This document shows positions 1,969-39,823 of a stretch of DNA of 39,823 nucleotides, piece by piece (positions within the stretch are counted from its first letter, which is position 1; the number at the start of each line of letters is the position of its first letter). The translations under genes were made by a program, and so were the position numbers. The notes under the pieces are model-generated. The model was not told the DNA's origin and did not search any database. It saw only the letters and a list, made by a program, of their open reading frames with translations. The stretch spans positions 1 through 39,823 of the forward strand of contig JAPWVK010000178.1 in NCBI GenBank assembly GCA_029241965.1. Direction: 5' to 3'. The stretch comes from Candidatus Methanophagales archaeon (GTDB lineage Archaea; Halobacteriota; Syntropharchaeia; Alkanophagales; Methanospirareceae).

Positions 1969-2244
1969 TTGGAGAACTATACAAAGGAGCTTACGGATCA
2001 TAACGTGGAAAAGAAGTTGAAAGAGGTTGAAGAATTAATTCAAATTCAAATCGTTTTGGATATGAACGTAACTGCGTCCAGGATTTATGGCTTTTATTAC
2101 CACTTATTAAAGAGAAGAGGCGAATTGATTGATGAGCGAGTTCTCATCGCATCTATTGCAATTTCATTTGGTGAGACGAAAATAGTAACGAGAAATGCTG
2201 AGCACTTCAGGAGAATACCTGAGATCGAGGTAATATCTTATTGA
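1969..2244 (+). pseudogene. PIN-domain (VapC-like) protein, C-terminal part
   Basis: DERVLIASIAISFGETKIVTRNAEHFRRIPEIEVISY matches PIN C-terminal pattern. The N-terminal acidic motif is missing and the start is TTG. Confidence 0.5.
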
Positions 2245-2275
2245 TTAACAGAAAAGAAATCGTTGTGTAATATAG

Positions 2276-2653
2276 TTGGATCTCCACGCTCCCCTGCACG
2301 CACACGGGTACAACAAAGCCAACTCAAACAATAGAAGTACAAAAGCTGTACATCCATCCTGCGCGGGCACTGGCGGGCATACCGAATCCGTAAGGATTTA
2401 CGGAAATGATGTGGACGAGCACGCTTCAGGGACCGGTTACATTGAAGATGGGGATACATTAACCTTTGATTCCTCATTTACCTTAGAAGCCGGCAAAATC
2501 AACACCCATAAAATAGAAACAGGCTCGTATCCGCAGATTCCCCATACGAAGGCGTTACAAGCAGAAACCGGCTGGCTAAACTGCACTTCGTTCGTGGATG
2601 CGAATGGAAAGGAATATGACGATTGGATACCAGCAATAAAGTTAGGGTCATAA
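2276..2653 (+). pseudogene. Truncated copy of the recurrent surface module (GTGGHTE...TGSYPQIxHT...WIPAIKL)
   Basis: CAGTGGHTESVRIYG...IETGSYPQIPHTKAL...CTSFVDANGKEYDDWIPAIKLGS. Upstream homology (TKPTQTIEVQKLYIHP) is in another frame, implying a frameshift. Confidence 0.65.
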
Positions 2654-2739
2654 AACCCTTTTTTCTTGGAAAACAAAAGGCGGTTATGCTTTATATGCGA
2701 TAAAACGATTTGATACTCCTAATTTGGTTTTACAATGTT

Positions 2740-3831
2740 TTAGTCACGCTGATTTTCCCACAAAGAACACACCGGATCCTCACCCAGATAATCGCCCGAA
2801 GTAGCATACGCCCTGGACCGGCATCCTCCACAGATTCGCTTATATTTGCACGTTCCACAGTGTCCTTTCAATTTACGCGCTCTCAACGCCTTGAACATCT
2901 CTGAATTCCGGACGATATCCAGAAAAGGGGTTTCTTTTATATTCCCCGCCTTTACGGGCAGGTATGCACATGGAGCCACATCACCATTAGGAAAGATATG
3001 AAAACGGGTGATACCCGCCGTGCATCCGGTAAACTTAGTTCCATCCACACGATCCACAATCTCTTTATCTTCCATATAAGCCCAGTATTGTGGATTGCAA
3101 ATCGGTTTAAGCCACGTATTCACTTCCGTTTGCTCAGTCGCCGTATAGTCAAAGAACTCCATGTTCTCATCCGTGGACAAACAAGCTTCAGAAATCTGCT
3201 TACCACGACCAACAGCAATCAAATAAATGAGATAGATTCGCCATATGTTTAAATCATCAGCAAACTTGATTATTTCTGGTATTCCGCTATAATTATCCCT
3301 TGTCACTGTGGTGAAGAACTGTACAGAAAGCCCTTCCTCTTCACATGCTTTCAGCCCGCGGAGCATGTTCTTAAACGCACCATTCACGCCACGAAACACA
3401 TCATGTGCACTGCCAACAGCATCAATGCTCATTGCCGCACGTTCAAGACCCGCTTTTTTCAACCGTTTCGCAACTTCATTCGTTATCAGCGTTCCATTCG
3501 TTGCCATCACGACCTGCATGTCAAAAGACGCAGCATATTCGATGAGGTCATAGATGTCCTCTCTCAGCAGCGGCTCACCACCCGTGAATCCGAACTTGAC
3601 CGGCCCGAGCTTGGCTGCGTCCTCAATAAGCCCGAACCCCTCTTCTGTCGTGAGTTCTCCTGAGCCCACTTCGCTAATCGAACAATGTTTGCACTTTAGG
3701 TTACACCGCTTTGTGACCGCCCAGATGATCTCACCTGGCAGATAGCTGAAACAGCCGGTTCCTACCGCATCGTTTGCAAATATTTCGTCTTTATGTGCAC
3801 TTATCCATGACTTTAGTTCTTCTACTGACAT
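2740..3831 (-). CDS. Radical SAM protein with SPASM/twitch-type C-terminal cysteines
   Basis: CNLKCKHC (CxxxCxxC), GFTGGEPLLR, C-terminal CGTCKYKRICGGCRSRAYATSGDYLGEDPVC. Start reassigned to MSVEELKSW. Confidence 0.9.
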   Translation of the reverse strand: MSVEELKSWISAHKDEIFANDAVGTGCFSYLPGEIIWAVTKRCNLKCKHCSISEVGSGELTTEEGFGLIEDAAKLGPVKFGFTGGEPLLREDIYDLIEYAASFDMQVVMATNGTLITNEVAKRLKKAGLERAAMSIDAVGSAHDVFRGVNGAFKNMLRGLKACEEEGLSVQFFTTVTRDNYSGIPEIIKFADDLNIWRIYLIYLIAVGRGKQISEACLSTDENMEFFDYTATEQTEVNTWLKPICNPQYWAYMEDKEIVDRVDGTKFTGCTAGITRFHIFPNGDVAPCAYLPVKAGNIKETPFLDIVRNSEMFKALRARKLKGHCGTCKYKRICGGCRSRAYATSGDYLGEDPVCSLWENQRD

Positions 3832-4844
3832 TTTAAATACATTCCTAATCCTTTGAAAATGAAAATACCCATGAGTGCCACGAGTATAAAGAGCATCCCT
3901 ATGAATCCATTCTTGCATATAGCGTCTAACCCTCCTTTATTCCCCCATTCACCTTTAATCATTGGGATTACACTCCTGAGCAGGAAGAAAGCGGGTAACA
4001 GGAGCAATAGAACTGCTATTTCTTGTGTGATAAATATGACGGGAATAAACAGGATCAAAGAGCATAATGTCAATATGATATAGACTGGCGCCATTTTCTC
4101 CTTTCCGAATCTCACGACAAGAGTCCTTTTATTTGCCGATTTGTCCGCTTCATAATCGGGGAATTCGCGAATTATCTTCATTGCCGGCACAGCCACAGTC
4201 CACGGAAGCGCAACGATAAGAGGCAACCAGCTAAATCCCTGATAGATATAATAACCTGCAAATACCGGAATGGTAAATCCAATTGCCATAAATAGAGCGC
4301 TAAACCCATTATAAGACGCTCTCAGTGGTGGTGCTGTATAAAACAGACCCATTAAAATCCCGAATATGCCGAGTGGAATCGTTAATATTCCTGTATCAAA
4401 GTAGAACTGTAATATTACTCCAAGCGGGATAGTAGCGATGAAGAAGAGGATAGACGCCGTTAGAACCTGCTTTCCTGATAAAAGACCCTCAACCAATACC
4501 CGTGTGCCTCCAGTCGTGGTTACTCCGACTCTATCGCCACCAATTCGTCCTATATTTATCCTGTCTGTTTCATAATCGAAATACTCGTTCGACATGAATG
4601 CCCCATTCGTTATAAAATAGGTTATGATAAGCGAAATGACAAACACACGCAAATCTATTGTTCCCGCTTCGGACCATGCAATTGCGGTCCCGAGTAAGAA
4701 CGGTAAAAGTATCGTTGGATGCTTATGCAGTTCCTGAATCCTTACCCATGCAATCAATTTGTTAGCCACATTTTGCTGTGGGTTATCCTGAAATATAAAT
4801 ATGCTTTTTTGTGTACATATCCAGCCATGAACATAACATATCAC
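3822..4844 (-). CDS. UbiA-family prenyltransferase (MenA-like)
   Basis: Polytopic; NEYFDYETDRINIGRIGGDR and REFPDYEADKSANKRTLVVRFG. Overlaps the radical SAM start, suggesting an operon. N-terminus uncertain. Confidence 0.85.
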   Translation of the reverse strand: MICYVHGWICTQKSIFIFQDNPQQNVANKLIAWVRIQELHKHPTILLPFLLGTAIAWSEAGTIDLRVFVISLIITYFITNGAFMSNEYFDYETDRINIGRIGGDRVGVTTTGGTRVLVEGLLSGKQVLTASILFFIATIPLGVILQFYFDTGILTIPLGIFGILMGLFYTAPPLRASYNGFSALFMAIGFTIPVFAGYYIYQGFSWLPLIVALPWTVAVPAMKIIREFPDYEADKSANKRTLVVRFGKEKMAPVYIILTLCSLILFIPVIFITQEIAVLLLLLPAFFLLRSVIPMIKGEWGNKGGLDAICKNGFIGMLFILVALMGIFIFKGLGMYLKCQ

Positions 4845-5196
4845 AAGGAACTCAGAACTTGAATATGTTTAAAGCATTATGTGCCGCTCGCTAAAAACAT
4901 CCGGATTTGAATTTTAACGTAAGGTTTAGTATTTACTAAAAATTACCCTATTCCAAGAGTTAGAATATCGTTTTATACACGCCCAATGTCCGTTCTGCCG
5001 TTTTATCTTAGGTATGGCCATTTTCAAATATTCGCCTCGACTCTGCACCCTTCTTTTCCATATCGCCACTTAACACCTCTTCTATTTTACTTGTCCATTT
5101 ATTCAGAGCCATTAGCATATCTATTTTGCATTGATAATATCATATAAATAATTGTACGGTCTTTGTTCTGCATAAGACTACAGGAACTAAAAGAAA

Positions 5197-6957
5197 ATGA
5201 GGCTGAAAGGAACCTGGGAACTCGCAGCGATAGCCGCACTAACCATCTTTTTCCTGCTTTTTGCGGTCTTTAACCTGGGTGCCGTTACGATGCCTTCTTC
5301 CTGCTGGCAGCCGTCAAAAGCAGCTTTGGGCGAAGAGGATATCCCTGTGGTTTTTGACTTAGGACATGTTCAGCAAGTAAAAGCGGTTTATATATTCTTG
5401 CGTGATGCGAAGCGGACTAAGTTCGAGCTATATGGCTGTGCTGTGGATGATGTGGGGCCGCGTTCAGAAGATTGGCGGATGCTCGCCTCTTATGATAAAG
5501 ACCCCGCAAATAGTGTGCACTTTTCCAATTGGGATAAAAAGGATTTTGGTAATAACAGCGTACGGTTTCTCAAGTTCATATTCGATGCCGCGGAGTCGGA
5601 CGGTAAGATAGGGGAGATTCTGGTAATATCTGCGGGGAATAAAAAGGTTGATGTTGTTGATGTACAGGCGGAAGGTGAGTTCGAAGACCCGGTGCAGTTA
5701 GTAGATGAGCAACAGTTCGTGGAACTTCCAATCACACAGAAGTATGGCGCTTACTTTGATGAGATGTACTTTATGCGAACTGCGGAAGAGCATTTGAATC
5801 GTGAGGAGCCATACGAATGGACGCATCCACCACTCGGAAAGCTCATAATCGCATCGGGCATTCTAAAGTTTGGTATGAACCCATTTGGCTGGCGCATTCT
5901 TGGCGCATTAGCCGCAGCATTGATGATTCCTATAATATTCCTTCTGAGTAAGCGCATGTTTAAAAGTGCATTAATGGGCTTCTTCGCGGCTTTCCTTTTG
6001 ACATTCGATTTCATGCACTTCGCTCTGGCGCGGTTGGCAACTGGCGAGATATACATCGCTTTTTTTTCTCTTTTGATGTTTTATTTTGCCTTCGATTATT
6101 TCTCCAACCGGGAGGGCAGTGAAAAAGGAAAGAACACCTCTCTTTTCCTGAGCTTTGTCTTCTTCGGGTGTTGCTTCGCGGTGAAATGGATTGCAATCTT
6201 TGGTTTTGTAGCAATTTTGATTCTATTAGTGATTAGCGATCTAAAAGTCAGGAAGCCAATTCTTAGCGATTGGAAGACCGTCTTAGCAGGGCTACTCGTT
6301 GCCGCGGCTATTTACATCGCGACTTATATTCCATCCATGTTCGCAGGCGAGGGACATGGTCTCGTGGATGTCATCAAGTTGCAGTTCTATATGTTTGGAT
6401 ACCATGCAGGAATTGACGCGACGCATCCTTTCTCTTCTCCCTGGTGGAGCTGGCCCTTGATGTTTAACCCTTTTGACCCAGGGGTTCATGTACCACTTTG
6501 GATGTACTCCAACACATTTGACGGCACAGTTTCGACAGTCGTTTTGATGGGTAATCCTATTATATGGTGGTGCGGTATTCCCGCTTTGATTTTCATAGCG
6601 GCACGGATCGTATCGGATAAAGTAAGACATATAGGTAGGGATAATAACGTTGAACTATTCATCCTCATTCCGTTCCTGTTGCAATGGATCCCGTTTTTGT
6701 TCATCTCGAGAATCCTATTCATCTATCATTTTATGCCCAACGTGCCGTTCATGATACTTGCACTCACTTATTGGATAAATGAGCTGCATATGAGACCGAC
6801 AACGCGGAAAAGTGTCGCCATCTTTGTTATAATGTACTTGATTGTGTTAGTATCCGCCGCAGTTCTTTTCTTCCTGTTTTACCCTGTTATATCGGGTTAC
6901 CCGGTAACGTATGAATATAAAGAGAGTTTAAAGTGGTTAAGTGGCTGGTCTTTTTGA
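5197..6957 (+). CDS. PMT-family (GT39-like) dolichyl-phosphate-mannose-protein mannosyltransferase with inserted N-terminal extracytoplasmic domain
   Basis: YFDEMYFMRTAEEHLNREEPYEWTHPPLGKLIIASGI, many TM segments, and a discoidin-like segment at ~aa 30-165. Confidence 0.85.
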   Translation: MRLKGTWELAAIAALTIFFLLFAVFNLGAVTMPSSCWQPSKAALGEEDIPVVFDLGHVQQVKAVYIFLRDAKRTKFELYGCAVDDVGPRSEDWRMLASYDKDPANSVHFSNWDKKDFGNNSVRFLKFIFDAAESDGKIGEILVISAGNKKVDVVDVQAEGEFEDPVQLVDEQQFVELPITQKYGAYFDEMYFMRTAEEHLNREEPYEWTHPPLGKLIIASGILKFGMNPFGWRILGALAAALMIPIIFLLSKRMFKSALMGFFAAFLLTFDFMHFALARLATGEIYIAFFSLLMFYFAFDYFSNREGSEKGKNTSLFLSFVFFGCCFAVKWIAIFGFVAILILLVISDLKVRKPILSDWKTVLAGLLVAAAIYIATYIPSMFAGEGHGLVDVIKLQFYMFGYHAGIDATHPFSSPWWSWPLMFNPFDPGVHVPLWMYSNTFDGTVSTVVLMGNPIIWWCGIPALIFIAARIVSDKVRHIGRDNNVELFILIPFLLQWIPFLFISRILFIYHFMPNVPFMILALTYWINELHMRPTTRKSVAIFVIMYLIVLVSAAVLFFLFYPVISGYPVTYEYKESLKWLSGWSF

Positions 6958-7379
6958 TAGTTCTTTTTTTGTGCTTCTTATATCCACAAGAATCTCACAG
7001 GATTTGGGTATATAACTAATTGAATATGCCTTTTTGGGTTTGTTGCACAAACTCATTTACCTTCCGTTCGGCAGCCTTTTCCCGATTTCACGGCATAACC
7101 AACCTTTCTTTTTTAAAAAGATTTGCTGAAGCAACAAAAAACTTTATATGTTATTAAAAAAAGATTTGGGCGGTTACCAAATAAGGATTCTGTTAACTGG
7201 CATTTTGATGAACATCATCTCGAAATTAGTTTCACAACATGTGAAACATTTCTGGCCTCTATTGCAGACTATTTAAACTCCTTTTTTCTTAGCTTCTATT
7301 GTGGTAGCGAATAAAAAAAGCTATCATAATCAAAAGTTGTTAAATTCGATAAAAAAAATAGGAGGTGAAAACGAAAAAA

Positions 7380-8693
7380 ATGATAGGTAATAAAACTATT
7401 GTAGGTCTTATGATAACGACAATGGTCCTTTCTTGTGTTGCAGTTGCGGTTACTGCGGATGAAGGTCCTGTAGAGCCAATGGGTATTCTGCCCGGGTCAA
7501 TAACAACTACGCTCATCGCAGATAGTACTATTGTAGATGCGGATATATCAGGCAGTACGGATATCACATTAGGCGACGGCCAGAGTTTCAAAGGAGCCCA
7601 AGGACTGACAGTTTCAGCCACTAATGCGTTAACTGTTACTGGTGGTGCGGCTTCAACCTGGTCAACCACTGCTGGCGATTTAACTATAGAAGCGGGAATA
7701 GCTACTCCTGCTGCGCTAAAATTAATTTCTGACGAGAGTACTGTGGATGCGGTTACGATTGATGCTACTGTTGGTGGTATAGACATTACTACCGGTGGCT
7801 CAGAAGACATTGACATTACCGGGTCAGGAGGAGTTAACATTCAGTCTTCAGAAACACACGCTAGTGCATTAACTTTGGCGGCTACTGGCGCTGCTGGTGG
7901 AGTTGACATTAATACAACTAATGGTATTATTGCCATAACTGCCGGTGGTTCAGACAATGGTGACATCACTTTGACAGTCGGAGATGACTTCACGCTTAAT
8001 GGTGTCGCTGATTCTGCCTATGCTATTGGTGCCTCAACTGTTGGTGGAACAATAGCCATTGGTGGAACTGCTCAAACAGGAGCTATTACTTTAGGTTCGA
8101 GTAGTGCTGGCCAGACGGTTAATATTGGTACAGGCGCAGGTGCTAGCGACATTAACATTGGTACTGATGCAACCGCTGTAAATACTATTGATATTGGTGC
8201 GGACAGTGACGATACGGTCACTATTCACGGTACTGTGGTCTTCTCGGATGACTATGTCACGAATGACGAACTGGCTGCTAATGCGGTGCCAACGCTTATG
8301 ACTAAATCCGCTGCGAGAGTGTCAACAGTAAATGCATCATATAATGATGGCTATGGCACAACATGGACCAATAATACATGGAACGTTGGCTCGCTGAGCA
8401 TACCCCGAGGTGTTTCAGGTTCAAACCTTACCATCCATTACAGCGCAGAAACCGATGTTAGTGACTCGGCTACCGTGCTTCACGTAACATGCAATGTTTC
8501 TGGTAGTAATGCGGATACTGCGGACATAAAATTCGGTGATTATGCCGGTATTAATCAGACTTACAGTGCAGTATTCTATGCAACAGGTGTTACTGATGGC
8601 AGCGTACCGATAAAGATAGGATACAGAGCTGCAGGTGACGGCACGGTTGGATTAACGAACCAGACAATAGTAGTGGTAGCGTATCCAGCGTAA
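7380..8693 (+). CDS. Secreted repetitive beta-rich protein (tail-fibre/adhesin-like repeats)
   Basis: Signal peptide (MIGNKTIVGLMITTMVLSCVAVAVTA) preceded by ggaggtg. Repeats such as AITLGSSSAGQTVNIGTGAGASDINIGTDATAVNTIDIGADSDDTVTIHG. Confidence 0.75.
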   Translation: MIGNKTIVGLMITTMVLSCVAVAVTADEGPVEPMGILPGSITTTLIADSTIVDADISGSTDITLGDGQSFKGAQGLTVSATNALTVTGGAASTWSTTAGDLTIEAGIATPAALKLISDESTVDAVTIDATVGGIDITTGGSEDIDITGSGGVNIQSSETHASALTLAATGAAGGVDINTTNGIIAITAGGSDNGDITLTVGDDFTLNGVADSAYAIGASTVGGTIAIGGTAQTGAITLGSSSAGQTVNIGTGAGASDINIGTDATAVNTIDIGADSDDTVTIHGTVVFSDDYVTNDELAANAVPTLMTKSAARVSTVNASYNDGYGTTWTNNTWNVGSLSIPRGVSGSNLTIHYSAETDVSDSATVLHVTCNVSGSNADTADIKFGDYAGINQTYSAVFYATGVTDGSVPIKIGYRAAGDGTVGLTNQTIVVVAYPA

Positions 8694-8857
8694 GTTGTAG
8701 ACAACACAACACACAGAACTATATAAAAAAACAGTAAAAAGTTCAAAAGGGATTTTTTTTTTCTCTCCCTTTTTTATTTATTTTTAAACTCTATTTCTTT
8801 ATTTAATATTAAATCTTATATTCCGATAAAGTTAATATCCAATAGAGGTGATGGTAA

Positions 8858-9148
8858 ATGGAAATTTGGTCAGCAAATAAGAATATGGGTGCTTACCCTA
8901 AATGTGAGCAAGAGCTTTTAGCACTTTATCATGTAAAAACAGCGGTGTTTTGTGATGGCAAGCTGCTGAGTGCTGATATAAAAGATAGAGAAACAGTTGA
9001 GGTGGCTTGCATCGAAGCGAAAACATATTCAGAAAAGCTACCAGAGATAAATATTGGTAGGACTTTTTTGAACACATATTTTATCACCTTGAATGGTGAA
9101 GAGATTTGTGTTAAAAGAACGGAGGTAGAATCACTAAAAAATGCCTGA
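8858..9148 (+). CDS. Hypothetical protein (96 aa), overlapping the next gene
   Basis: SD-like gaggtgatg upstream of ATG; 8-nt overlap with 9141. Confidence 0.65.
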   Translation: MEIWSANKNMGAYPKCEQELLALYHVKTAVFCDGKLLSADIKDRETVEVACIEAKTYSEKLPEINIGRTFLNTYFITLNGEEICVKRTEVESLKNA

Positions 9149-10205
9149 AAAAGAAGTGTCTAAGTTCAGCATAGGGACAATACTCCTAATCGGTTTGTTT
9201 ATTGTGGCAACACTAAGTGCGGGATATATCGGGTACTGGTGGGGAACTCGAGAGAACCTGCCAGCTTCTTCGCCCGGCTGGAATACTTATACCGATAAAA
9301 ACATGGGTTTTGCTCTTTCGTATCCCGCGACCTGGCGTGGTGAACTACCAGAAGAAGGCTACTTGCTTTTTAAAGGACCGGCAGATGATAAAGGGCATGT
9401 TCCAAACATAATCGTGCGGGCTATGCGTTCCGCAAGCTCAGGCGGGAATTACACCTCTTATGAAGATGCAGCATCTGAGATGCTCTCTCGGCTCAAGACT
9501 CGTGATAATTATTCGTTGATATTACGCGATCCCACAACGGTTTGCAATGAATCAGCACGCGAACTCGTTTGCGCCTACTCCTTTGATGGTGTTGCCCTGA
9601 AACAGGCACAAGTAATCTTCCAGGAGCCTCGTACAGAATACATTTACATGATTGTTTTTACTGCTACTAAGGAAAGTTATCCGGATTATATAGAAGCCTA
9701 TGAAAAAGCGAAGCAAACGTTTACCTTCGGTCCGGACTGGAGGACTTTCACGGACCAAAAGCTCGGGTTTGCTCTTGCGTATCCCGCGGCATGGCGTGGT
9801 GAAATAACAAAAGACGGCTACTTGCTCTTTAAAGGTCCTGTTGACGAGAAGGGCAGTAGCCCAAATATCATCGTTCAGGCTATGCATCCCGCAAGTTCAG
9901 GCGGGAATTACTCGTCTTACGAGGATGCGGCATCTAATATCGTGGATCAACTCAAGACTCATGAAAACTATACGCTGAGTTCATATACGCAAACGACAAT
10001 TTGCAATGAATCCGCACGTGAACTCGTTTGCGCTTATTCCTACAACGGGTTTGCCCTGAAAGAGCGCAGGATTATCTTCCAAGACTCAAACACGGGTTAT
10101 ATATATATGATCGTATATACCGCTACGGAGACAAGTTATCCCGAATATATTGGCGTGTTTGAAAAAGCGAAAGGAACATTTAGATTTGACCGGGTAAATA
10201 CCTGA
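9141..10205 (+). CDS. Membrane-anchored protein with two tandem PsbP/DUF1795-like domains
   Basis: One N-terminal TM; W(N/R)T(Y/F)TDxxxGFAL(S/A)YPA(T/A)WRGE...GYLLFKGP...FT(F)G repeated twice. Confidence 0.8.
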   Translation: MPEKEVSKFSIGTILLIGLFIVATLSAGYIGYWWGTRENLPASSPGWNTYTDKNMGFALSYPATWRGELPEEGYLLFKGPADDKGHVPNIIVRAMRSASSGGNYTSYEDAASEMLSRLKTRDNYSLILRDPTTVCNESARELVCAYSFDGVALKQAQVIFQEPRTEYIYMIVFTATKESYPDYIEAYEKAKQTFTFGPDWRTFTDQKLGFALAYPAAWRGEITKDGYLLFKGPVDEKGSSPNIIVQAMHPASSGGNYSSYEDAASNIVDQLKTHENYTLSSYTQTTICNESARELVCAYSYNGFALKERRIIFQDSNTGYIYMIVYTATETSYPEYIGVFEKAKGTFRFDRVNT

Positions 10206-10312
10206 ATGGATTAACGAGATGTGAGATATAATTCCACGAACCCGTAGGTAAATTGTATTCTTTTCGAGAGATAAACATGTCAGAAGTGCTTACAATCTCT
10301 TGTATCCTGCCT

Positions 10313-11008
10313 TCATCTCCTTCTCCTCAAAACATAACCCACCGCAAGTAATCCTGCAACTGCTACTATCGCTTCAAAGCCGGGTAACCGCGATTTTTGT
10401 GTCACTCCTATTATTGCATTCGCAAACTCATTTGCCGCTTCTGAATCCCTTCCAGTTACTATCCGGTCGGAAATCACAACACCTTCATCTACATAGGTCG
10501 CTCCATACAAGCCCACTACTTTTAGCACTGTTCGAAATCCTGTGCATTTCTTATCTTCCAGAATCCCTGCCTTCGCAAGCACCACGGGCGATAAACCAAT
10601 TGCAGACACAACTTTCCCTTTCTCGTATGCTTCTTTAACCAGAGCATGCAAATCCTCGTCTTCCCAGAGATGTCGCTTTGAGCCGGTACCGCCAACAATT
10701 ACAATTACATCATAATCTCCTGGATTCACATCATAAAACGAAATATCAGGTTTTACCTCATCCCCCGACATCCCGCTCGCCGCTTCTTTACTCTTACTCG
10801 CTATCACTACTTCCGCTCCTGCCGCTTCAAATACTTGTTTTGGCTCTGATAGTTGCTTTTCATCGAAGCCCTCTGGCGCGATTACCATCAATATCTTTTT
10901 AGTTTCAAGCTCATTCCCTGCTTCCGTTGCGCTTATTACACCCACGCTTAGCGCCAGCACCGCCAACACCACTACTATTACCGCTTCTGTTAATCTTTTA
11001 ATATCCAT
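10313..11008 (-). CDS. Exported DJ-1/PfpI-family protein with PGF-CTERM-like C-terminus
   Basis: Signal peptide; ILMVIAPEGFDEKQLSEPKQVFEAAGAEVVIAS...YDVIVIVGGTGSKRHLWED; C-terminal PGFEAIVAVAGLLAVGYVLRRRR. Confidence 0.85.
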   Translation of the reverse strand: MDIKRLTEAVIVVVLAVLALSVGVISATEAGNELETKKILMVIAPEGFDEKQLSEPKQVFEAAGAEVVIASKSKEAASGMSGDEVKPDISFYDVNPGDYDVIVIVGGTGSKRHLWEDEDLHALVKEAYEKGKVVSAIGLSPVVLAKAGILEDKKCTGFRTVLKVVGLYGATYVDEGVVISDRIVTGRDSEAANEFANAIIGVTQKSRLPGFEAIVAVAGLLAVGYVLRRRR

Positions 11009-11137
11009 TTCTACCTCTTATATACAATATCGGTACATTAATATGATAAACGTAAAGTCTTTATACTATTTATAGTATGTTGACCAATACTATAAAGAGC
11101 TATAACTAAAAGGAAAGAGGGGGAAAGTGGTGATAAG

Positions 11138-12643
11138 ATGAAATTGGCTGTATACCTATTTTTGGGATTTATAACGATGGTTTTATTAGTGACGGCAATT
11201 GATGCGAAGACGATTACCGTGGATGATGACTTAAGCGAGTGCCCCTCAGCGAATTTTACTTCTATTCAAGTAGCGATTAACAACTCTGCCGATGGTGACT
11301 CTATCCTGATTTATAACGGCACTTACCGTGAGAATGTGGTTGTAAACAAAATGCTTAATCTGACTGGAATCGGAATGCCCGTCATAGATGGAATGAAGAA
11401 TGGCAACGTAATAAATATAGTATCAAACGATTGCATAATTGACAATTTTAAAATGACGAATGGTAGTTATTCTGATTGGGATGGTGGTGCGGTTTATATT
11501 AATTCTCAAAACAATATAATTAAAAACAATACAATATCATATAATAGGGATACAGCCGGAATTCTTATTGGTAGAAGAAATAACTCAATATATTGTAATA
11601 ATATAGTTTCAAATGTAGAGGGCATTCATATTTTTGATACATATGGCTATGATGGTGAGGCGAATATAATTTGTTCTAATAATATCTCTCGTAATGGCAG
11701 GGGAATTTATTTAGAAACAGGAAAATATAATGAGATTTATTCCAATAATATCTCAGATAATTCTTATGCGGGTTTAGATCTTTGGGATGCTAATAATAAC
11801 AATATTTATGGGAATATAATATCATCAAACACAGAGAATGGATTCTACATCTGGAATTCACGAGGCAACAAAATATATTCAAACGAAATATCCGGGAGCA
11901 AAAAGGGATTGACAATGTGGATTTCCTGCGGAAGCAATACAATCTATTCAAACATAATATCAAACAATGAAGAGGGAATCTACATTTACGATAGGGACTA
12001 TCCCAGTAACAACAATCTCATATACCACAACGATTTCATCGAAAATGCTGCAAATAACGCATATGACGAATGCACAAATCAATGGTTCAACGCTTCGCTT
12101 GAAGAGGGGAATTACTACGATGATTACGAAGAGAAATATCCTGATGCAACCGAGATAAACGGTATATGGGATATTCCATACGCGATTACTGGTGGTGATA
12201 TTCAGGACCTGTATCCGCTGATAGTACCATACATAAAAAAAGGTATCTTTGACACAGGTGAAGGCTCTTATCCCAGCATAAAGGGTACACACAACGGCAC
12301 AATAGTGCCAACAGAAAATATAACCGTGCATAAACTGTTTACATACTCCTGCACTGGTACTGGCGGGCACACAGAGCAGGTAAGAATCTGGAATAATTCC
12401 GGTTGGGATGTAACGGCAAATTGGACTGGTTATCAAGGTGATTTGGACAGCATCTCCTTCCCCCTTTCTTTCTCGCTACTCGCGGGCGAAACCTACTACT
12501 ACACCATTCGCACCGGCTCTTATCCTCAAATCCACCATACCAACAGTCTTTCAACACCTGCTGGTGTTATAACCTGCACAGAATTTATAGACGCAAATGG
12601 CAAAAAATATTGGGACTGGATACCGGCTATTAAGCTGGACTAA
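11138..12643 (+). CDS. Secreted NosD/parallel beta-helix protein with C-terminal recurrent surface module
   Basis: Signal peptide; NN-rich PbH1-type repeats; C-terminus GSYPSIKGTHNGTI...CTGTGGHTEQVRIWNN...TGSYPQIHHTNSL...EFIDANGKKYWDWIPAIKLD. Confidence 0.85.
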   Translation: MKLAVYLFLGFITMVLLVTAIDAKTITVDDDLSECPSANFTSIQVAINNSADGDSILIYNGTYRENVVVNKMLNLTGIGMPVIDGMKNGNVINIVSNDCIIDNFKMTNGSYSDWDGGAVYINSQNNIIKNNTISYNRDTAGILIGRRNNSIYCNNIVSNVEGIHIFDTYGYDGEANIICSNNISRNGRGIYLETGKYNEIYSNNISDNSYAGLDLWDANNNNIYGNIISSNTENGFYIWNSRGNKIYSNEISGSKKGLTMWISCGSNTIYSNIISNNEEGIYIYDRDYPSNNNLIYHNDFIENAANNAYDECTNQWFNASLEEGNYYDDYEEKYPDATEINGIWDIPYAITGGDIQDLYPLIVPYIKKGIFDTGEGSYPSIKGTHNGTIVPTENITVHKLFTYSCTGTGGHTEQVRIWNNSGWDVTANWTGYQGDLDSISFPLSFSLLAGETYYYTIRTGSYPQIHHTNSLSTPAGVITCTEFIDANGKKYWDWIPAIKLD

Positions 12644-14180
12644 ACGTCGTTCTTTTGTTATCGTTCTGCTTCTGCTCGCAAGCGCGTTGATATTAGCCTC
12701 TGCATTTGAAAGCGCAGCGAACGAAAACGAACCCTGGATAATATGCTTCAATGCCAAAATCCCTGCGTGGGCTTTTGAGACCTACACAGTTATGGATATA
12801 AATGAAGAGCTGAATTGCATACTTGTAAAAACGACAGAACAAGAAGAAACTGTTTTTACCGCAAGTTTAGAAGACGTAAAATATGTGGAAACGAATAAAC
12901 TCGTTCATGCTTTATCTCCCTACTCGCCAGACGATCCTTATTTTTACGCGCAGTGGAATTTGAACTGTATACATGTGGACACGGCATGGGATTTTGATAA
13001 AGGCAGTAAAAACGTTACTTTAGCTATATTGGATTCCGGGATTGATTACGAGCATGTGGATTTAGTGGGTAATTATGCGGGTGGCTTTGACTTCGTGAAT
13101 AATGATTCCGATCCTATGGATGACTATTCCCAATGGCATGGTACCAAGGCTGCCGGGGTTGCCGCAGCTACAATAGACAATGGAATAGGAATAGCAGGAA
13201 TAGCACAAGTGAACATCCTCGCGTTGAAGGTTTTGAATGAAACCGGATACGGAACCACCTGGAACGTAGCAAAAGCTATTACATATGCGGCAAATCAATC
13301 CTCTGATGTGATATGTATGAGTATTGGAACTAATGAATCCACGGTGCTTGAAGATGCCTGCATTTATGCCTGGCACAAAGATTCAATCCTGGTTGCAGCG
13401 GCAGGGAATGATAATTTATCTGTTATTCGACATCCTGCTGTGTATCCCTCGGTAATAGCGGTAGGCGCAATAGATGAAGATGAAAAGCGGGAGAGTCACA
13501 GCAATTTTGGACCGGAATTGGAGTTAGTTGCGCCTGGAACATGGATTTCAACAACTTCTGGGAATAATGGCTATACCTCTTTTTACGCTGGTACTTCAGC
13601 CGCAACTGCCCATGTCGCTGGCGTTGCCGCACTGCTAAAATCTAAGTATCCTGAGTACACAAACGAAGAACTCAGAGTTCGTTTGCGGAATACAGCAAAG
13701 GATTTAGGAAAGAAAGGAAGAGATGTTTATTACGGTTATGGTCTGGTGGATGCCTATGCAGCATTAGATATAAAATTTGATACAGGGCCTGGAACGTACC
13801 CCTGCATCTCCGGTACACATAATGGGACTATAATACCTTTTCAGGATATTAACATCCATAAAATGTTCACTTATTCTTGTGAAGGCACAGGTGGGCATTC
13901 AGAATATGTAAAAATTTTTAACTCGACCTGGAACGTAACAGCAATTTGGGACGGTTACAACGGAGATTGGCACAACATAACTTTTAATAAGGAATTCACG
14001 TTAAAATCGAATCTCACTTATAACTATACCATAAAAACCGGCTCTTATCCACAAATTCATCATGCCAAGAAGTTGAAAATAGATAATGGAATTATTACAT
14101 GCGAGGAATTCATAGATGTAAATGGTCGTACTTATAACAATTGGATCCCAGCCATTAAGTTCTTTTATCGTGAATATTAA
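12597..14180 (+). CDS. Secreted S8 (subtilisin-like) serine protease with the same C-terminal module
   Basis: Catalytic blocks VTLAILDSGIDYEHVDL, QWHGTKAAGVAAA, YAGTSAATAHVAGVAALL; C-terminus GTYPCISGTHNGTI...CEGTGGHSEYVKIFNS...TGSYPQIHHAKKL...WIPAIKF. Confidence 0.9.
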   Translation: MAKNIGTGYRLLSWTKRRSFVIVLLLLASALILASAFESAANENEPWIICFNAKIPAWAFETYTVMDINEELNCILVKTTEQEETVFTASLEDVKYVETNKLVHALSPYSPDDPYFYAQWNLNCIHVDTAWDFDKGSKNVTLAILDSGIDYEHVDLVGNYAGGFDFVNNDSDPMDDYSQWHGTKAAGVAAATIDNGIGIAGIAQVNILALKVLNETGYGTTWNVAKAITYAANQSSDVICMSIGTNESTVLEDACIYAWHKDSILVAAAGNDNLSVIRHPAVYPSVIAVGAIDEDEKRESHSNFGPELELVAPGTWISTTSGNNGYTSFYAGTSAATAHVAGVAALLKSKYPEYTNEELRVRLRNTAKDLGKKGRDVYYGYGLVDAYAALDIKFDTGPGTYPCISGTHNGTIIPFQDINIHKMFTYSCEGTGGHSEYVKIFNSTWNVTAIWDGYNGDWHNITFNKEFTLKSNLTYNYTIKTGSYPQIHHAKKLKIDNGIITCEEFIDVNGRTYNNWIPAIKFFYREY

Positions 14181-22243: not shown

Positions 22244-23308
22244 TTACCAAAATTTGGGGATTTTACCATCTCTCCTTCCGAACCCAGGTAGAGGTTGGCT
22301 GTGCTGAGGACATGGGTCAGTTAGAACTCCTGAGACTCCAGAACTTCCTTTCGCCCATTTTATGTTATCAATTGCCTCAATAAACTTAGACATATCGCCA
22401 ACCCCAGAATCATCAAAAGTATGATTTAAAGTCAATTTTATAGAAACTTCTGGTTCCTCAAGAAAATCTCTGGAAATGAACCTAAAGAAAAGTCTTTTGG
22501 AACTATTTTTCTCAATTTTACACGTGAATACATCAGTATCAAAATCTTTCCACTCACCATCATCCAACTTGATCCTATATAGAATGGTAGTTGTTTCCTT
22601 ATCGTCAGTAAACGCTGTTAAAGAGACATCATCTATTGTTGTGTCGTAATCAGCCCTATTATAGAAAATTGAGCTCACTAAAAATGCTATAAATGATTTT
22701 GAGTTATTGTCGCCTCTTATCTCTACATTCAACTCATCTGCATCAAAACTTTCCCCATAACATGAATTCTTTGAACTACTATAATATAGCTCTGGAACGT
22801 GCCGAGCACTTTTTATAATCACTTCCTGACTCCCCTTTCTCTTATTCCATAAATCCATCAAACGTGTTTTAACCAAATCTTTAAGCTGATCCGGGTTTTT
22901 AAATGGTTTGTAAGTATGCTCATTCTCTTTGATCTCGTTTATCCATCTATCAACTTTCTCTTCCCTATCCTTAACCTCTTTGATATAAATTAGAATACAA
23001 TCCTCTTCAATTTCAGAACAAGCATCGTTATACTCTTTGTGCGTTGGTGACTCCCCGTAATCATTGTTTCCATATTCTGAACCTAAAATTAAAATATATA
23101 TGTCGCTATCTCTAACTCCTTCAGATTGAATCCTATCTGGTTTTTTCCCACTGGGTATCTCTTTCGCGTTTTCCCAATCCCAAACCTTAAATGGTATGCC
23201 TTCGTGGTCCCAAAGCTCAGAGATCCCTTCCTTTACCTTATTTTTTTCCTCTTTTAATTCATCGAGTCTCGAACTTATGAAAACCATTGGTGGCTTCTTA
23301 TTATTCAT
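22244..23308 (-). CDS. DUF4062-domain protein with uncharacterised C-terminal beta-rich region
   Basis: PMVFISSRLDELKEEKNKVKEGISEL..IPFKVWDWE..RIQSEGVRDSDIYILILGSEYGNNDYGESPTHKEYNDA. Confidence 0.75.
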   Translation of the reverse strand: MNNKKPPMVFISSRLDELKEEKNKVKEGISELWDHEGIPFKVWDWENAKEIPSGKKPDRIQSEGVRDSDIYILILGSEYGNNDYGESPTHKEYNDACSEIEEDCILIYIKEVKDREEKVDRWINEIKENEHTYKPFKNPDQLKDLVKTRLMDLWNKRKGSQEVIIKSARHVPELYYSSSKNSCYGESFDADELNVEIRGDNNSKSFIAFLVSSIFYNRADYDTTIDDVSLTAFTDDKETTTILYRIKLDDGEWKDFDTDVFTCKIEKNSSKRLFFRFISRDFLEEPEVSIKLTLNHTFDDSGVGDMSKFIEAIDNIKWAKGSSGVSGVLTDPCPQHSQPLPGFGRRDGKIPKFW

Positions 23309-24030
23309 AATTCTTTATTCCACTTTTCTAAAAGTCTCTTATCATTTTTAGTAAGTAGAGAAGTATTATATTTCTTCTCCAAGTTATAAATTGCATCATA
23401 TATCTCGATTGCGGTTTTAATATTCTTCTTGTTATAATGAATTTTGGCTTGGAATCTATAAGCTTTGGAAATGTCACGAAGCGCAGCAGGCAAAGGCAAA
23501 GCCTGAATCCAATATAATATTGCCTCATTAAGATTTCTCCATGCATCATCATTGACATTTTTTGCATTCATTCCAGTTTCTATTGCTTTTCTCCAATAAG
23601 CATCTCCCAAAGTCCAGTAAATACTTTCAGCCTCAAATTTTGTAATAGACAATGCTTCTTTTGCTAATTCTATGCCTTTGTCATATTCCCCATTTTTTAT
23701 TAGTGATAGTGCCTCAAAATACAATAGATTTGCTCTTTTTTGTGTCTCTGAAAATACTGCATAATCCTCTATGCTTGCTTTTTTTAGTATCAATTGAGTG
23801 ATTTCAAAAGGACTTAAATTAACATAATTTGGATCTAGTTTCTGCAGTATCCCATCTTCAGTTAGATTTATGGGACTATTTTTAGATTTCCTAGTCACGA
23901 CTTTTTCATCTTTTGGATTTTCATTTTCTTTAGTCTCTCCTTTGCGTATTCCTTTCGCTTCTTCCATTTTTTGTTTTGAATATTCCCTTTGTTTATTTCT
24001 TTTCCCTTTAAATCTATCCAGTATTCCCAT
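23305..24030 (-). CDS. TPR-like protein, coupled to the DUF4062 gene
   Basis: Charged N-terminus then helical repeats (ALSLIKNGEYDKGIELAKEALSITKFEAESIYWTLGDAYWRKA...). Stop overlaps the next start by 4 nt. Confidence 0.65.
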   Translation of the reverse strand: MGILDRFKGKRNKQREYSKQKMEEAKGIRKGETKENENPKDEKVVTRKSKNSPINLTEDGILQKLDPNYVNLSPFEITQLILKKASIEDYAVFSETQKRANLLYFEALSLIKNGEYDKGIELAKEALSITKFEAESIYWTLGDAYWRKAIETGMNAKNVNDDAWRNLNEAILYWIQALPLPAALRDISKAYRFQAKIHYNKKNIKTAIEIYDAIYNLEKKYNTSLLTKNDKRLLEKWNKEL

Positions 24031-25740: not shown

Positions 25741-27825
25741 TCAAGCTTTCAACTGATCTATTAAATTCCCGCTGGCATCATAGAGTTTCGCAGTATCGCC
25801 ATCATTATTCCAAATGGGTCTCCCGCTTCCCCAGTATAATTCAATAGTGGTATCGGTCCCTTTGCCTGTGTATAGTGTTACTGTGGCTCCCGAAGATAAA
25901 GTGAACGAAGGGAAGATGTATGTGTGTATGGCACCCTCATCCGTGATTTTCCACTCAGTTAGTTTTATTGACGATGCACCGGAATTGGTTATTTTTACCC
26001 ACTCATCAGCAAGATTAATTTCGCTGATATACACGGAAGGGGTTGGTGTTGGTGTTGGTGTCAAAGTTCCATGTACTTCTGATAGTCCGCCAGCCGTTAC
26101 CTCTACCGAGGTTGACCAATCCTGATAACCATCCTGTGAAAGCTTAATCGTGTGGGTACCGGGGGACGTTGTAATCGTGGTTGGTGTTATTGACATAGGT
26201 CCAACAGCCCTTTCGCCATCGAATTCTATCACGGCACCCGAGGGGTCCGAAGTGATTTTGATAGTGCCGGATGTAGGTGGTGTCGGCGTCACGTTGTATC
26301 CCAATATAATCGCGGGAATCCAATTATCGTATCTTTCCCCATTTACATCCACAAATTCAGTACAGTTTATCCGCCCGTTTACTGTTAGCAGTGCATCCGT
26401 ATGATGAATCTGTGGATACGAGCTTGTACGTATCTCATAGTTGTATGTTTTGTTTGCACACAACTTAAATGATTCAGGGAAAGAGAGGCTTTGCCAATCG
26501 CCGTTATATCCTGCCCACGGCAGTGTCTCGACACTCCAAGATTCATTACAAATTTTAGCGTATTCCGTATGCCCACCCGTTCCTGTGCAGGGATACGTGT
26601 AAAACTTTTGCACAATGATTGCTTGGTTTAACTCTATTGTTCCATTATGCGTGCCTGCGATACTGGGATATGTTCCGGTACTGGTGTCGAACACTAACCC
26701 TTTAGAAACTGTTATTGCTTGGAACGTTGTATTTATCGCACCATCATCATCGGTTACTGTTAGATTCACGGTGAAAGTACCGGCTGAAGTGTAAGAATAG
26801 GTGATAATTTGTTCTGTCGTGTTCGTGATGTTTCCATCTCCAAAGGTCCATTCGTATTTCGTGATGTCTCCATCAGGGTCTGTTGAATTGGATGCGTTGA
26901 ATGTTATCGTTTGTGCTACAATAGGATTTGCCGGTGAATACGTGAAATTAGCAACCGGTGGTTGGTTCTCCTTTAACGTTACGTTCCACATCCAAGCATG
27001 CATATCAGTCCCATTTGCATTTGTCACGATTGCCGAAACGTTCCAGGTTCCAGCGACAGCACTCGTGTTCGTATAAGTTACTTCCGTTACGCTTTCGTTT
27101 GTTTGAACTTCGGTTCCATTTATCTGCCAGCTTACGTTTACTGTTTGGTTTACAGTTATGTTGAACGTTCTTGTTGCTCTTTCAATGTCATTTACTGGCG
27201 ATTCTGGCGCATAGAATATTATCTTTGGTGGTGCTCCCGTTTTTTCTCCATACTTTATCGTGTAGTAGTTGAAAGTGTAAAGGAGAGTGTGAGTGTTTCT
27301 ATCATGAGAAGTGCCAGTTACGATTACATTACCTGATGTGTCCGTGGCTACACCATAAGCAAAATCACCGAATACACTATCATAGCCACTATCAGAGCTT
27401 TTGCTCCATAACTCATATCCATCGGGGTCATACTTTATCGTGTAGTAGTTATTATTGCTTCCATCCTGAGAAGTGCCAGTTACGATCACATTACCCGATG
27501 CGTCCGTTGCTACTCCTCTTGCACTATCACTGTTTCCACTATCATAGCTTCTATTCCATAACTCATATCCATCGGGGTTATACTTTATCGTGTAGTAGTT
27601 AGTATTGTTTCCATCCTGATTTGAATTGCCGGTTACGATTACGTTACCTGATGCGTCAGTAGCTACTCCTTGAGCCCCACCTCCGCTATAGCTTCTATTC
27701 CATAACTCATATCCATCGGGGTCATACTTTATCGTGTAGTAGTTAGCAGTGCTTCCATCTTGAGAATAGCCAGTTACGATTACATTACCTGATACGTCAG
27801 TGGCTACTCCGTTTGCGCTATCATT
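25741..27825 (-). pseudogene. Large secreted protein, C-terminal part: SBBP-like propeller repeats, PKD, recurrent module, PEGA, lamin-tail-like domain
   Basis: Frame open from 27825 without ATG (first GTG at 27489). NVIVTGTSQDGSNNNYYTIKYDPDGYELW repeats; PVANFTYSPANPIV...WTFGDGN (PKD); GTYPSIAGTHNGTI...WIPAIIL; GTIKITSDPSGAVIEFDGE (PEGA); VYISEINLADEWVKITNSG (LTD). Confidence 0.7.
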
Positions 27826-27898: not shown

Positions 27899-28465
27899 CT
27901 ACCATAACTCATATCCATCGGGGTCATACTTTATCGTGTAGTAGTCACCATCAGATGTACCAGTAACGATTACATTACCTGATACGTCAGTGGCTACTTC
28001 ATAAGCAGTATTAGTGTATCCACCATCATAGGTTCTGCTCCATAACTCATATCCATAGGGGTTATACTTTATCGTGTAGTAGTTACGAGTGTAACTATGG
28101 GTTAAAGTATCCTGAGAACACCCGGTTACGATTACGTTCCCTGATGCGTCAGTGGCTACTCCGTGAGCCCACTCATAGTTTCCACTATCATAGGTTCTGC
28201 TCCATAACTCAGTTCCATCGGGGTCATACTTTATCGTGTAGTAGTTCTCATTCAGTCCTTTAGGAGACTTCATGTGCCCAGTAACGATTACATTACCTGA
28301 TGCGTCAGTAGCTACGCCTTGAGCCCAATCAGATCCACTACTATCATAAGTTCTGTTCCATAACTCAGTTACTTCTGCACTCACCGGCATCACAGCTAAA
28401 AAGAAGAACGCTATTATCGATACCAAAGCGATTAGGGTTATTTTCTCGCGTTTCATTTTTCTCAC
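27899..28465 (-). pseudogene. N-terminal part of the same propeller protein (signal peptide + repeats), stopped by TAG at 27899
   Basis: MKREKITLIALVSIIAFFFLAVMPVSAEVTELWNRTYDSSGSDWAQGVATDASGNVIVTG..., the same repeat unit as 25741-27825. Confidence 0.75.
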
Positions 28466-38301: not shown

Positions 38302-39823
38302 ATGCCTAATGAAACAATTACGTTCTTGAGCGGAGTGGACATATACGTCTTAGCCGCCTTCTTCAGCATCATAGCAGGAATAGTTGCAATATTCCTGCGT
38401 TTCATTGCAATATTACCGTATATAAAATCTAAAAAGGATTTCTCTGACCTATTCATCTACCGCAAAGCGAAGGACCTGCAACAGAGTGATTTCGCAATTC
38501 AACAGCCTTTACATGCAAACGCAGAAGTATATAAAAGAAGGGATAGTGACGAGACGATAAAGAACTCGCTTAAGAATCATGAAAACGTTTTGGTTGTAGG
38601 TATGCCAAAATCAGGGAAGACTAGAAGTATCTATCAGGCACTAAAAGCAGTCCTCCCGGATTTTATTGTGATTAAAGTCCCGCCCAAAGAAGTAGAACAA
38701 GTTCGTTTCCCATTCATAAAGAGGAATTATTTGGTATTTTTTGACGATTTAAACAAATTTAGTGATGTGAATTTTGATTTTGATTTGTTTTTGAAGAAGA
38801 TTAAAGCGAAATCAAAGAACTTGATTGTCGTTTCAACATGCAGGAGCGGCGATGAGCATACATTAGTTAAAAATAAGTCCATGCAGTTTTTGAGTACTTT
38901 TACAAAGGTTGTAGATCTGGATGAATACGAATTGAATGAAAGCGAGGGAGAAGAATTAGCAAGGGAAGCAGGAGTAACATGGAAGCCCGAGCAATTTCTT
39001 GGAACGCCTGGCTCGGTGATCCTTGACATTGAAGACATGAAAAACAGGTACCGGAACTCAGGGACTTATGAAAGATCTATTTTGAGGGCGTGTAAGCTTT
39101 TAAAACGAGCTAACATTTTTAGTTACGAGAAGGTGCTAATAAGAGCAGTTTCCACTTCCATTTTTGAAACTAAAATCAATGAGTCTTCTTGGATTGATTC
39201 AATCACCCATCTTAAAGAAAATAATCTTGTTACATGGTCTTCCATTCCTAAAATTGATGTCTATGACCCCACATTAGAATCGGTTGTTGGTGATTATGAC
39301 CCAGTAGATCATCTTGAAAGTCTATTAAGCCTTTTAATTGGGTTAGAGGATGCGAAAAGTCTATTTTATCTCGGGAATGCCTTTTACAGGGATAAAAATT
39401 ACGAGAATGGAGAAAAAAGCTATAAAGAGTGTTTACGGATTAGTCCAGAGGTGGCAGAAGTGCATAATAATCTTGGGATTTTGTTAAACAATGTGGGAAG
39501 AAAAGAGGATGCGGAGAAGGAATACCGCGAAGCTATAAGGATTAACCACGATTACGCGGGAGCACATAATAATCTTGGGAATTTGTTAAACAATGTGGGA
39601 AGAAAAGAGGATGCAGAGGAGGAATACCGCGAAGCTATAAGGATTAACCGCGATTTTGCAGAAGCACATAATAATCTTGGGGTTTTGTTAAACAATGTGG
39701 GAAGAAGAGAGGATGCGGAGAAGGAATGGAGAGAAGCGCTAAGGATTAAGCCCGATTTCACAGAAGCAGGTTATAATCTTGGGAATTTGCTATATGATTT
39801 GGGAAGAAAAGAGGATGCAGAGG
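38302..39823 (+). CDS. Membrane-anchored P-loop NTPase with C-terminal TPR repeats (runs off window)
   Basis: MPNETITFLSGVDIYVLAAFFSIIAGIVAIFLRFIAILPYI (TM); VLVVGMPKSGKTRSIYQAL (Walker A); NYLVFFDDLNKF (Walker B-like); then TPRs. Absent from the ORF track because no stop lies in the window. Confidence 0.8.
   Translation, partial: MPNETITFLSGVDIYVLAAFFSIIAGIVAIFLRFIAILPYIKSKKDFSDLFIYRKAKDLQQSDFAIQQPLHANAEVYKRRDSDETIKNSLKNHENVLVVGMPKSGKTRSIYQALKAVLPDFIVIKVPPKEVEQVRFPFIKRNYLVFFDDLNKFSDVNFDFDLFLKKIKAKSKNLIVVSTCRSGDEHTLVKNKSMQFLSTFTKVVDLDEYELNESEGEELAREAGVTWKPEQFLGTPGSVILDIEDMKNRYRNSGTYERSILRACKLLKRANIFSYEKVLIRAVSTSIFETKINESSWIDSITHLKENNLVTWSSIPKIDVYDPTLESVVGDYDPVDHLESLLSLLIGLEDAKSLFYLGNAFYRDKNYENGEKSYKECLRISPEVAEVHNNLGILLNNVGRKEDAEKEYREAIRINHDYAGAHNNLGNLLNNVGRKEDAEEEYREAIRINRDFAEAHNNLGVLLNNVGRREDAEKEWREALRIKPDFTEAGYNLGNLLYDLGRKEDAE
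39451..39823 (+). repeat. 102-bp (34-codon) near-identical tandem TPR repeats
   Basis: gcagaagtgcataataatcttgggattttgttaaacaatgtgggaagaaaagaggatgcg... repeated with few changes. Confidence 0.9.

Follow-up and report, generated by a model that had tools for sequence, protein, structure and literature searches.

The GTGGH/SYPQI domain of about 130 residues, called X throughout, occurs once per protein and mostly at the C-terminus, sits behind unrelated partners with export signals, is exchanged between proteins and is held under purifying selection. It probably serves as an interchangeable, single-copy C-terminal tag: in ANME-1 archaea it would mark proteins exported by Sec and, through its conserved loops, attach them to a shared envelope partner. 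The domain was recognized in a stretch of 39,823 nucleotides, here the window, from the 2.66-Mb draft genome (G000) of an ANME-1 archaeon (Methanophagales). No description of X was found in the full-text literature searched, a scope outside which most subscription journals fall, and as far as the searches show X is undescribed as a domain, C-terminal tagging being already known as a principle.

Positions of the window copies and their carriers are given in Table 1; profile matches refer to an X profile built from 96 copies. An earlier note on this DNA had described a motif string shared by four proteins, at the C-terminus of a beta-helix protein and of an S8 protease, internally in a propeller/PKD protein, and in a decayed fragment. 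The motif appears in the translations of all four places, and the profile places it as described, but three of the four are real proteins and the fourth is a relic. The intact copies are about 60% identical in pairwise comparison, with tblastn E-values of 1e-45 or better, which excludes chance. Pfam models identified NosD (8e-24) and Beta_helix (2e-18) in carrier 1 and Peptidase_S8 (4e-56) in carrier 2, and the two genes overlap by 47 bp. Carrier 3 probably represents the 3' part of a longer gene, with the signal peptide encoded in the neighboring ORF, as an apparent frameshift or stop splits the propeller gene between 27825 and 27899 and the same repeats are found in both ORFs (repeat register from translations); its X copy belongs to an internal minority.

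Table 1. Copies of X and the genes that carry them (window positions)
Feature	Position	Strand	Description
X copy 1	12248-12640	+	C-terminal end of beta-helix protein; tail of 1 residue; profile match 12248-12637
Carrier 1	11138-12643	+	Signal peptide, NosD-type right-handed beta-helix, C-terminal X
X copy 2	13776-14162	+	C-terminus of subtilase; tail of 5 residues; profile match
Carrier 2	12597-14180	+	Signal peptide, Peptidase_S8, C-terminal X; start taken from start codon context
X copy 3	26302-26691	-	Internal; the 186 residues after it are PEGA and lamin-tail domains
Carrier 3	25741-27825	-	Beta-propeller repeats, PKD, X, PEGA, LTD
Probable 5' part of carrier 3	27899-28465	-	Signal peptide, SBBP/delta-60 propeller repeats
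X copy 4, decayed, frameshifted	2243-2653	+	vapB-like tail joined on; partial profile match 2315-2644

The decayed copy, noted earlier as the ORF at 2276-2653, is half of a frameshifted pseudogene that spans two reading frames; the other frame holds the first third of X, and the homology of its DNA with another site of the genome reaches back to about 2243. The decayed X (2243-2644, +) continues into a VapB-like tail (TEKKSL..IVG) and follows an apparent VapC-type end. The same vapB::X chimera was found elsewhere in the genome (L152:7744-8142 on G000:C53) with 77% DNA identity to that of the window, which means that this fusion of X with a toxin-antitoxin gene underwent duplication. Other genes of the window include ORF remnants resembling the terminal part of a group II intron maturase (3-1032, +; the part at 334-1029 without a Pfam match), a membrane-anchored protein with two tandem PsbP-like domains (9141-10205, +), and two sets that recall genes of defence or signalling: an NTPase of the nSTAND3 type with TPR repeats (38302-39822, +) and a DUF4062 protein adjoining a TPR protein (22244-24030, -).

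A profile search of the whole draft genome returned 53 matches; near full-length copies number about 43 and lie in 43 ORFs, far more than the four copies first noted suggest. Across the class, 50 of the 58 genomes carry X, the richest with 58 matches; the same search found none in three ANME-1-family genomes (G012, G031 and G070) or in five genomes of other families. Some genomes hold one copy each (G036, G037, G023, G090 and G097). Named relatives belong to Methanophagales/ANME-1. In 394 genomes of the phylum, matches outside the class came from three members of a single genus (f17 g32) and from one further genome; G089 of this genus has a carrier identical to the one of 'Methanocellaceae archaeon UBA148'. 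One X-terminated carrier lies on a 244-kb contig labelled ANME-2 (L066). Copies also came from contigs with the labels Nitrosotalea and Thermoplasmatales (L085 and L062); they are probably binning errors and were left out as evidence for wider spread. Beyond the class, the three UBA148-type genomes and two scattered others, X was found in no other genome examined. X is thus narrow in range yet heavily expanded. A viral origin was tested and set aside, a scan of viral contigs having confirmed no relative.

Position within the carrier was measured on 138 distinct full-length copies, 135 of which have a stop codon in reach. X ends within 10 residues of the stop in 125 of these 135 copies (1-2 residues in 90), so that 93% are C-terminal and about 7% internal, and no ORF holds two copies. 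The N-terminal boundary usually reads 'FDTG.G.YPSI'. Export was assessed on the 111 carriers with a stop codon ahead of the ORF, taking ORFs of the same loci as controls: a signal-peptide-like N-terminus was found in 90 of the 111 carriers versus 94 of 369 controls. Most of the 21 carriers lacking one are fragments, truncated or frameshifted, or ORFs whose start falls within a repeat domain; the vapB chimera is also among them. They do not amount to the cytoplasmic carriers that would have spoken against an extracellular module. N-glycosylation sequons are enriched in X, at 4.2 per 100 residues versus 1.4 expected from composition; the carriers outside X have 2.4, and control ORFs lacking a signal peptide 0.46. 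A typical domain has five to six, several at conserved positions.

The partners are diverse. Pfam searches of the 43 carriers of the genome gave NosD/beta-helix, PKD, cohesin, PEGA, fn3, lamin-tail, DUF3160 and CARDB domains, subtilase, C25 and C39 peptidases, propellers, laminin-G and SNase domains, NMT1 (an ABC-type binding protein) and others. The module moves between such partners: among 45 pairs of X copies with at least 80% identity, 20 have non-homologous upstream proteins. The domain edge is marked by a jump in DNA identity from about 35-50% to over 80%; in such pairs, among them L083/L086 and neighboring genes in L158, identity is about 25-60% upstream and exceeds 80-90% only tens of bases into the domain. 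The converse is also seen, in orthologous carriers that are 95% or 91% identical upstream and in both cases 76% identical in X, with the divergence setting in inside X, indicating that X is swapped while its position is kept. The dN/dS of close copies is 0.06-0.42, with the exception of one young neighboring pair at 0.67; selection keeps X as a folded domain. Single copies behind unrelated secreted partners, together with this exchange, bear out the portability that had been proposed from the window alone.

The absence of a family name for X held as well: Pfam, NCBIfam and PDB sequence searches of the copies returned no family at its cut-off, and WD40-like matches arising from the 'IWN..W.GY' stretch were at chance level. 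The best Pfam model was DUF4082 (PF13313), matched by 7 of 96 copies at E<=10 (best 7.5e-4), and no X copy reached its cut-off of 28.4 bits, so that X is a sub-threshold distant relative and does not fall inside a described domain; a DUF4082 search of the 394 genomes independently reached three X copies at 19-21 bits. Profile-profile comparison by hhalign gave E 3e-4 against 15 bacterial DUF4082 sequences and E 3e-6 (probability 88) with archaeal DUF4082-like rows added, versus 0.029 or worse for controls (PKD, PEGA, LTD, cohesin, a further carrier repeat and reversed alignments). AlphaFold2, run on the 96-row X alignment, gave a confident all-beta model of 132 residues (mean pLDDT 91.3, pTM 0.85), predicted to be a beta-sandwich. 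Its best PDB fold matches by Foldseek were PHR domains (PF08005; MYCBP2, BTBD2) at E 1.7e-3 and TM 0.48, followed by phage baseplate, CBM35, C1q and TNF-like sandwiches. The DUF4082 model (pLDDT 78) has its first six strands in the same order and at nearly the same positions as X, and PHR is among its best fold matches (E 2.3e-4 to 3.2e-4).

PHR was at first taken as a direct relative from the fold match; its sequence profile proved insufficient alone (hhalign E 0.026, without a Pfam match), and DUF4082 bridged the two. The PHR C-terminal end, 'NG....GQIP.(I/L)(I/L)(F/Y)', resembles 'NG..Y.DWIPAI' of X, but PHR domains are eukaryotic and intracellular, and their match to X remains weak in sequence profile and below TM 0.5. 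DUF4082 is extracellular and about 140 residues long and has in common with X a TG(T/G)HT loop, TGTHT aligning with TGGHT of X including H42, and a '...F..P..I.AG..Y....' region. It differs in being tandem in several plasmid proteins examined, whereas X is single-copy and C-terminal, and the C-terminal half (TGSYPQIxH, C111, FxDxNG, WIPAI) and a near-invariant Cys pair are specific to X. Since model, profile-profile comparison and strand order agree, we conclude from sequence and predicted structure that X forms a remote branch of its own in a DUF4082/PHR-type beta-sandwich superfamily and is not a DUF4082 member.

Residues near-invariant in X (at least 93%) include H16, T39-G40-G41-H42, W60, Y63, T90-G91-S92-Y93-P94-Q95-I96, H98, F114, D116, N118-G119 and P127-A128. 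Many of them are loop residues and suggest a face that binds a ligand or partner, and the invariant histidines make a three-His metal site no more than plausible. C36 and C111 are both Cys in 132 of 138 copies and probably form one disulphide. In the mechanism we propose, carriers would be exported by Sec, as their N-termini imply, and the folded C-terminal X would then hold each carrier at a common partner on the cell's own envelope, for which the ANME-1 sheath (PMC11576556), the S-layer, a surface glycan and a cohesin-linked scaffold protein are candidates. The binding face would comprise the loops GTGGHTE, TGSYPQIxH and FxDxNG...WIPAI plus H16, H42, H98 and D116.

Two C-terminal systems already known in archaea offer a comparison. 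PGF-CTERM tags, which consist of a 23-residue PGF motif, transmembrane stretch and basic tail and are cleaved and lipid-linked, are likewise C-terminal on many exported archaeal proteins and occur in the same genome and window (10316-11008, -). X differs in having no hydrophobic tail; among the matches listed for the genome, neither PGF-CTERM nor dockerin falls within an X-bearing ORF, the PF18204 matches being in other ORFs. One protein of the window with such a tail is a DJ-1/PfpI-family member with an N-terminal signal peptide (10313-11008, -), apparently exported and membrane-anchored although the family is usually cytoplasmic. Dockerins are, like X, single-copy modules on diverse extracellular proteins alongside cohesin-bearing proteins, and dockerin/cohesin proteins are abundant in ANME (PMC9012536). 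However, a dockerin has about 57-60 residues with two calcium-binding repeats of ~22 residues, versus 130 all-beta residues in X, and a direct equivalence is ruled out by size, fold and the lack of a Pfam dockerin match in any copy. No X copy had a Pfam match to SLH or S-layer domains either.

In the draft genome, the roughly 43 X carriers outnumber 25 PGF-CTERM and 4 dockerin matches; there are also 15 cohesins, of which 4 are fused to a terminal X, as expected for an anchoring scaffold. Across 51 ANME-1 genomes the numbers of X and cohesin are correlated (rho 0.60; 0.58 as partial on genome size, 0.57 as partial on dockerin; within-genus residuals r 0.63), while X versus dockerin given cohesin is at -0.25 and not significant. 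The correlation may reflect mere richness in surface proteins. It fits with X anchoring some cohesins as scaffold, and a cohesin as receptor or scaffold partner of X is a lead. A 693-residue ORF of the same genome (G000:C104, L216) has an archaeal DUF4082-like domain together with a dockerin match and possibly links the DUF4082 branch to the cohesin-dockerin system.

Exported carriers, single copies, a terminal position and unrelated cargo are the features of a surface-attachment module, and the strong C-terminal, one-per-protein bias, which the earlier note did not include, speaks for tagging or attachment and less for ligand binding in general. An outward-facing ligand-binding or adhesion module would, as carbohydrate-binding modules do, recognize an extracellular glycan, a mineral or the surface of a partner cell and take enzymes and repeat proteins to it; the weak likeness of the fold to CBM35/CBM6-type and lectin beta-sandwiches, besides PHR, and the conserved aromatic and His loops would suit it. 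We nonetheless regard it as unlikely, given that carbohydrate-binding modules are often duplicated or variably placed, which X is not, and that an ABC-type solute-binding protein and cohesins make little sense as substrate-targeted enzymes. Weak structural matches to C1q, TNF-ligand and phage fibre or baseplate sandwiches raise instead a homotypic assembly module, which would build a mixed surface lattice or fibre in the manner of C1q/TNF-like heads or phage-fibre tips, and a strongly conserved module common to many partners would indeed co-assemble. These matches are no better than E 1e-3 with TM about 0.55, and genomes with one copy would need homo-oligomers, making this reading very unlikely.

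A C-terminal, single-copy module that is highly conserved over unrelated cargo could also be a secretion or sorting signal for a dedicated machine, possibly removed afterwards, like the type IX C-terminal domain of Bacteroidota. Against this, the carriers already have Sec-type signals, internal copies exist, none of the NCBIfam sorting-domain models matches X, and X is a whole domain, rich in glycosylation sites and with conserved loops, not a short recognition tail; we consider a sorting role highly improbable. That X is chiefly selfish DNA or a segment prone to recombination, spread by gene conversion and tolerated at gene ends, would account for the decayed and frameshifted copies, the vapB::X chimera at two sites and tandem neighbors with near-identical X, but has been largely refuted by purifying selection (dN/dS mostly 0.06-0.4). 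The domain is moreover kept in frame behind exported proteins, has no attached mobility gene and had no copy confirmed in the viral contigs scanned, and we give this explanation almost no weight.

Beyond an envelope tag on individual proteins, X may define an undescribed general display system with a dedicated envelope receptor (sheath protein, surface glycan or cohesin scaffold) in ANME-1 and the UBA148-type lineage, a third archaeal C-terminal tag next to PGF-CTERM and dockerin; to this wider proposal we assign slightly less than an even chance. The internal copies, the several single-copy genomes and the three ANME-1 genomes with none already speak against the envelope tag itself, and one copy per genome is little for a general tagging system. 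If the display system is real, X is the most used of the three C-terminal tags in the draft genome.

To our knowledge, the construction of the outer surface with which ANME-1 archaea face their sulfate-reducing partners is largely unknown. Sheath proteins of ANME-1 were proposed only in 2024 (PMC11576556). The scale of X in these archaea was unexpected. Its kinship places the uncharacterised DUF4082 in a superfamily with structures (PHR) and makes both testable. Were X a common attachment tag, it would point directly to surface proteins, as many as tens in a genome, offer a means to capture their receptor, and serve as a modular tag when proteins are to be displayed on archaeal surfaces.
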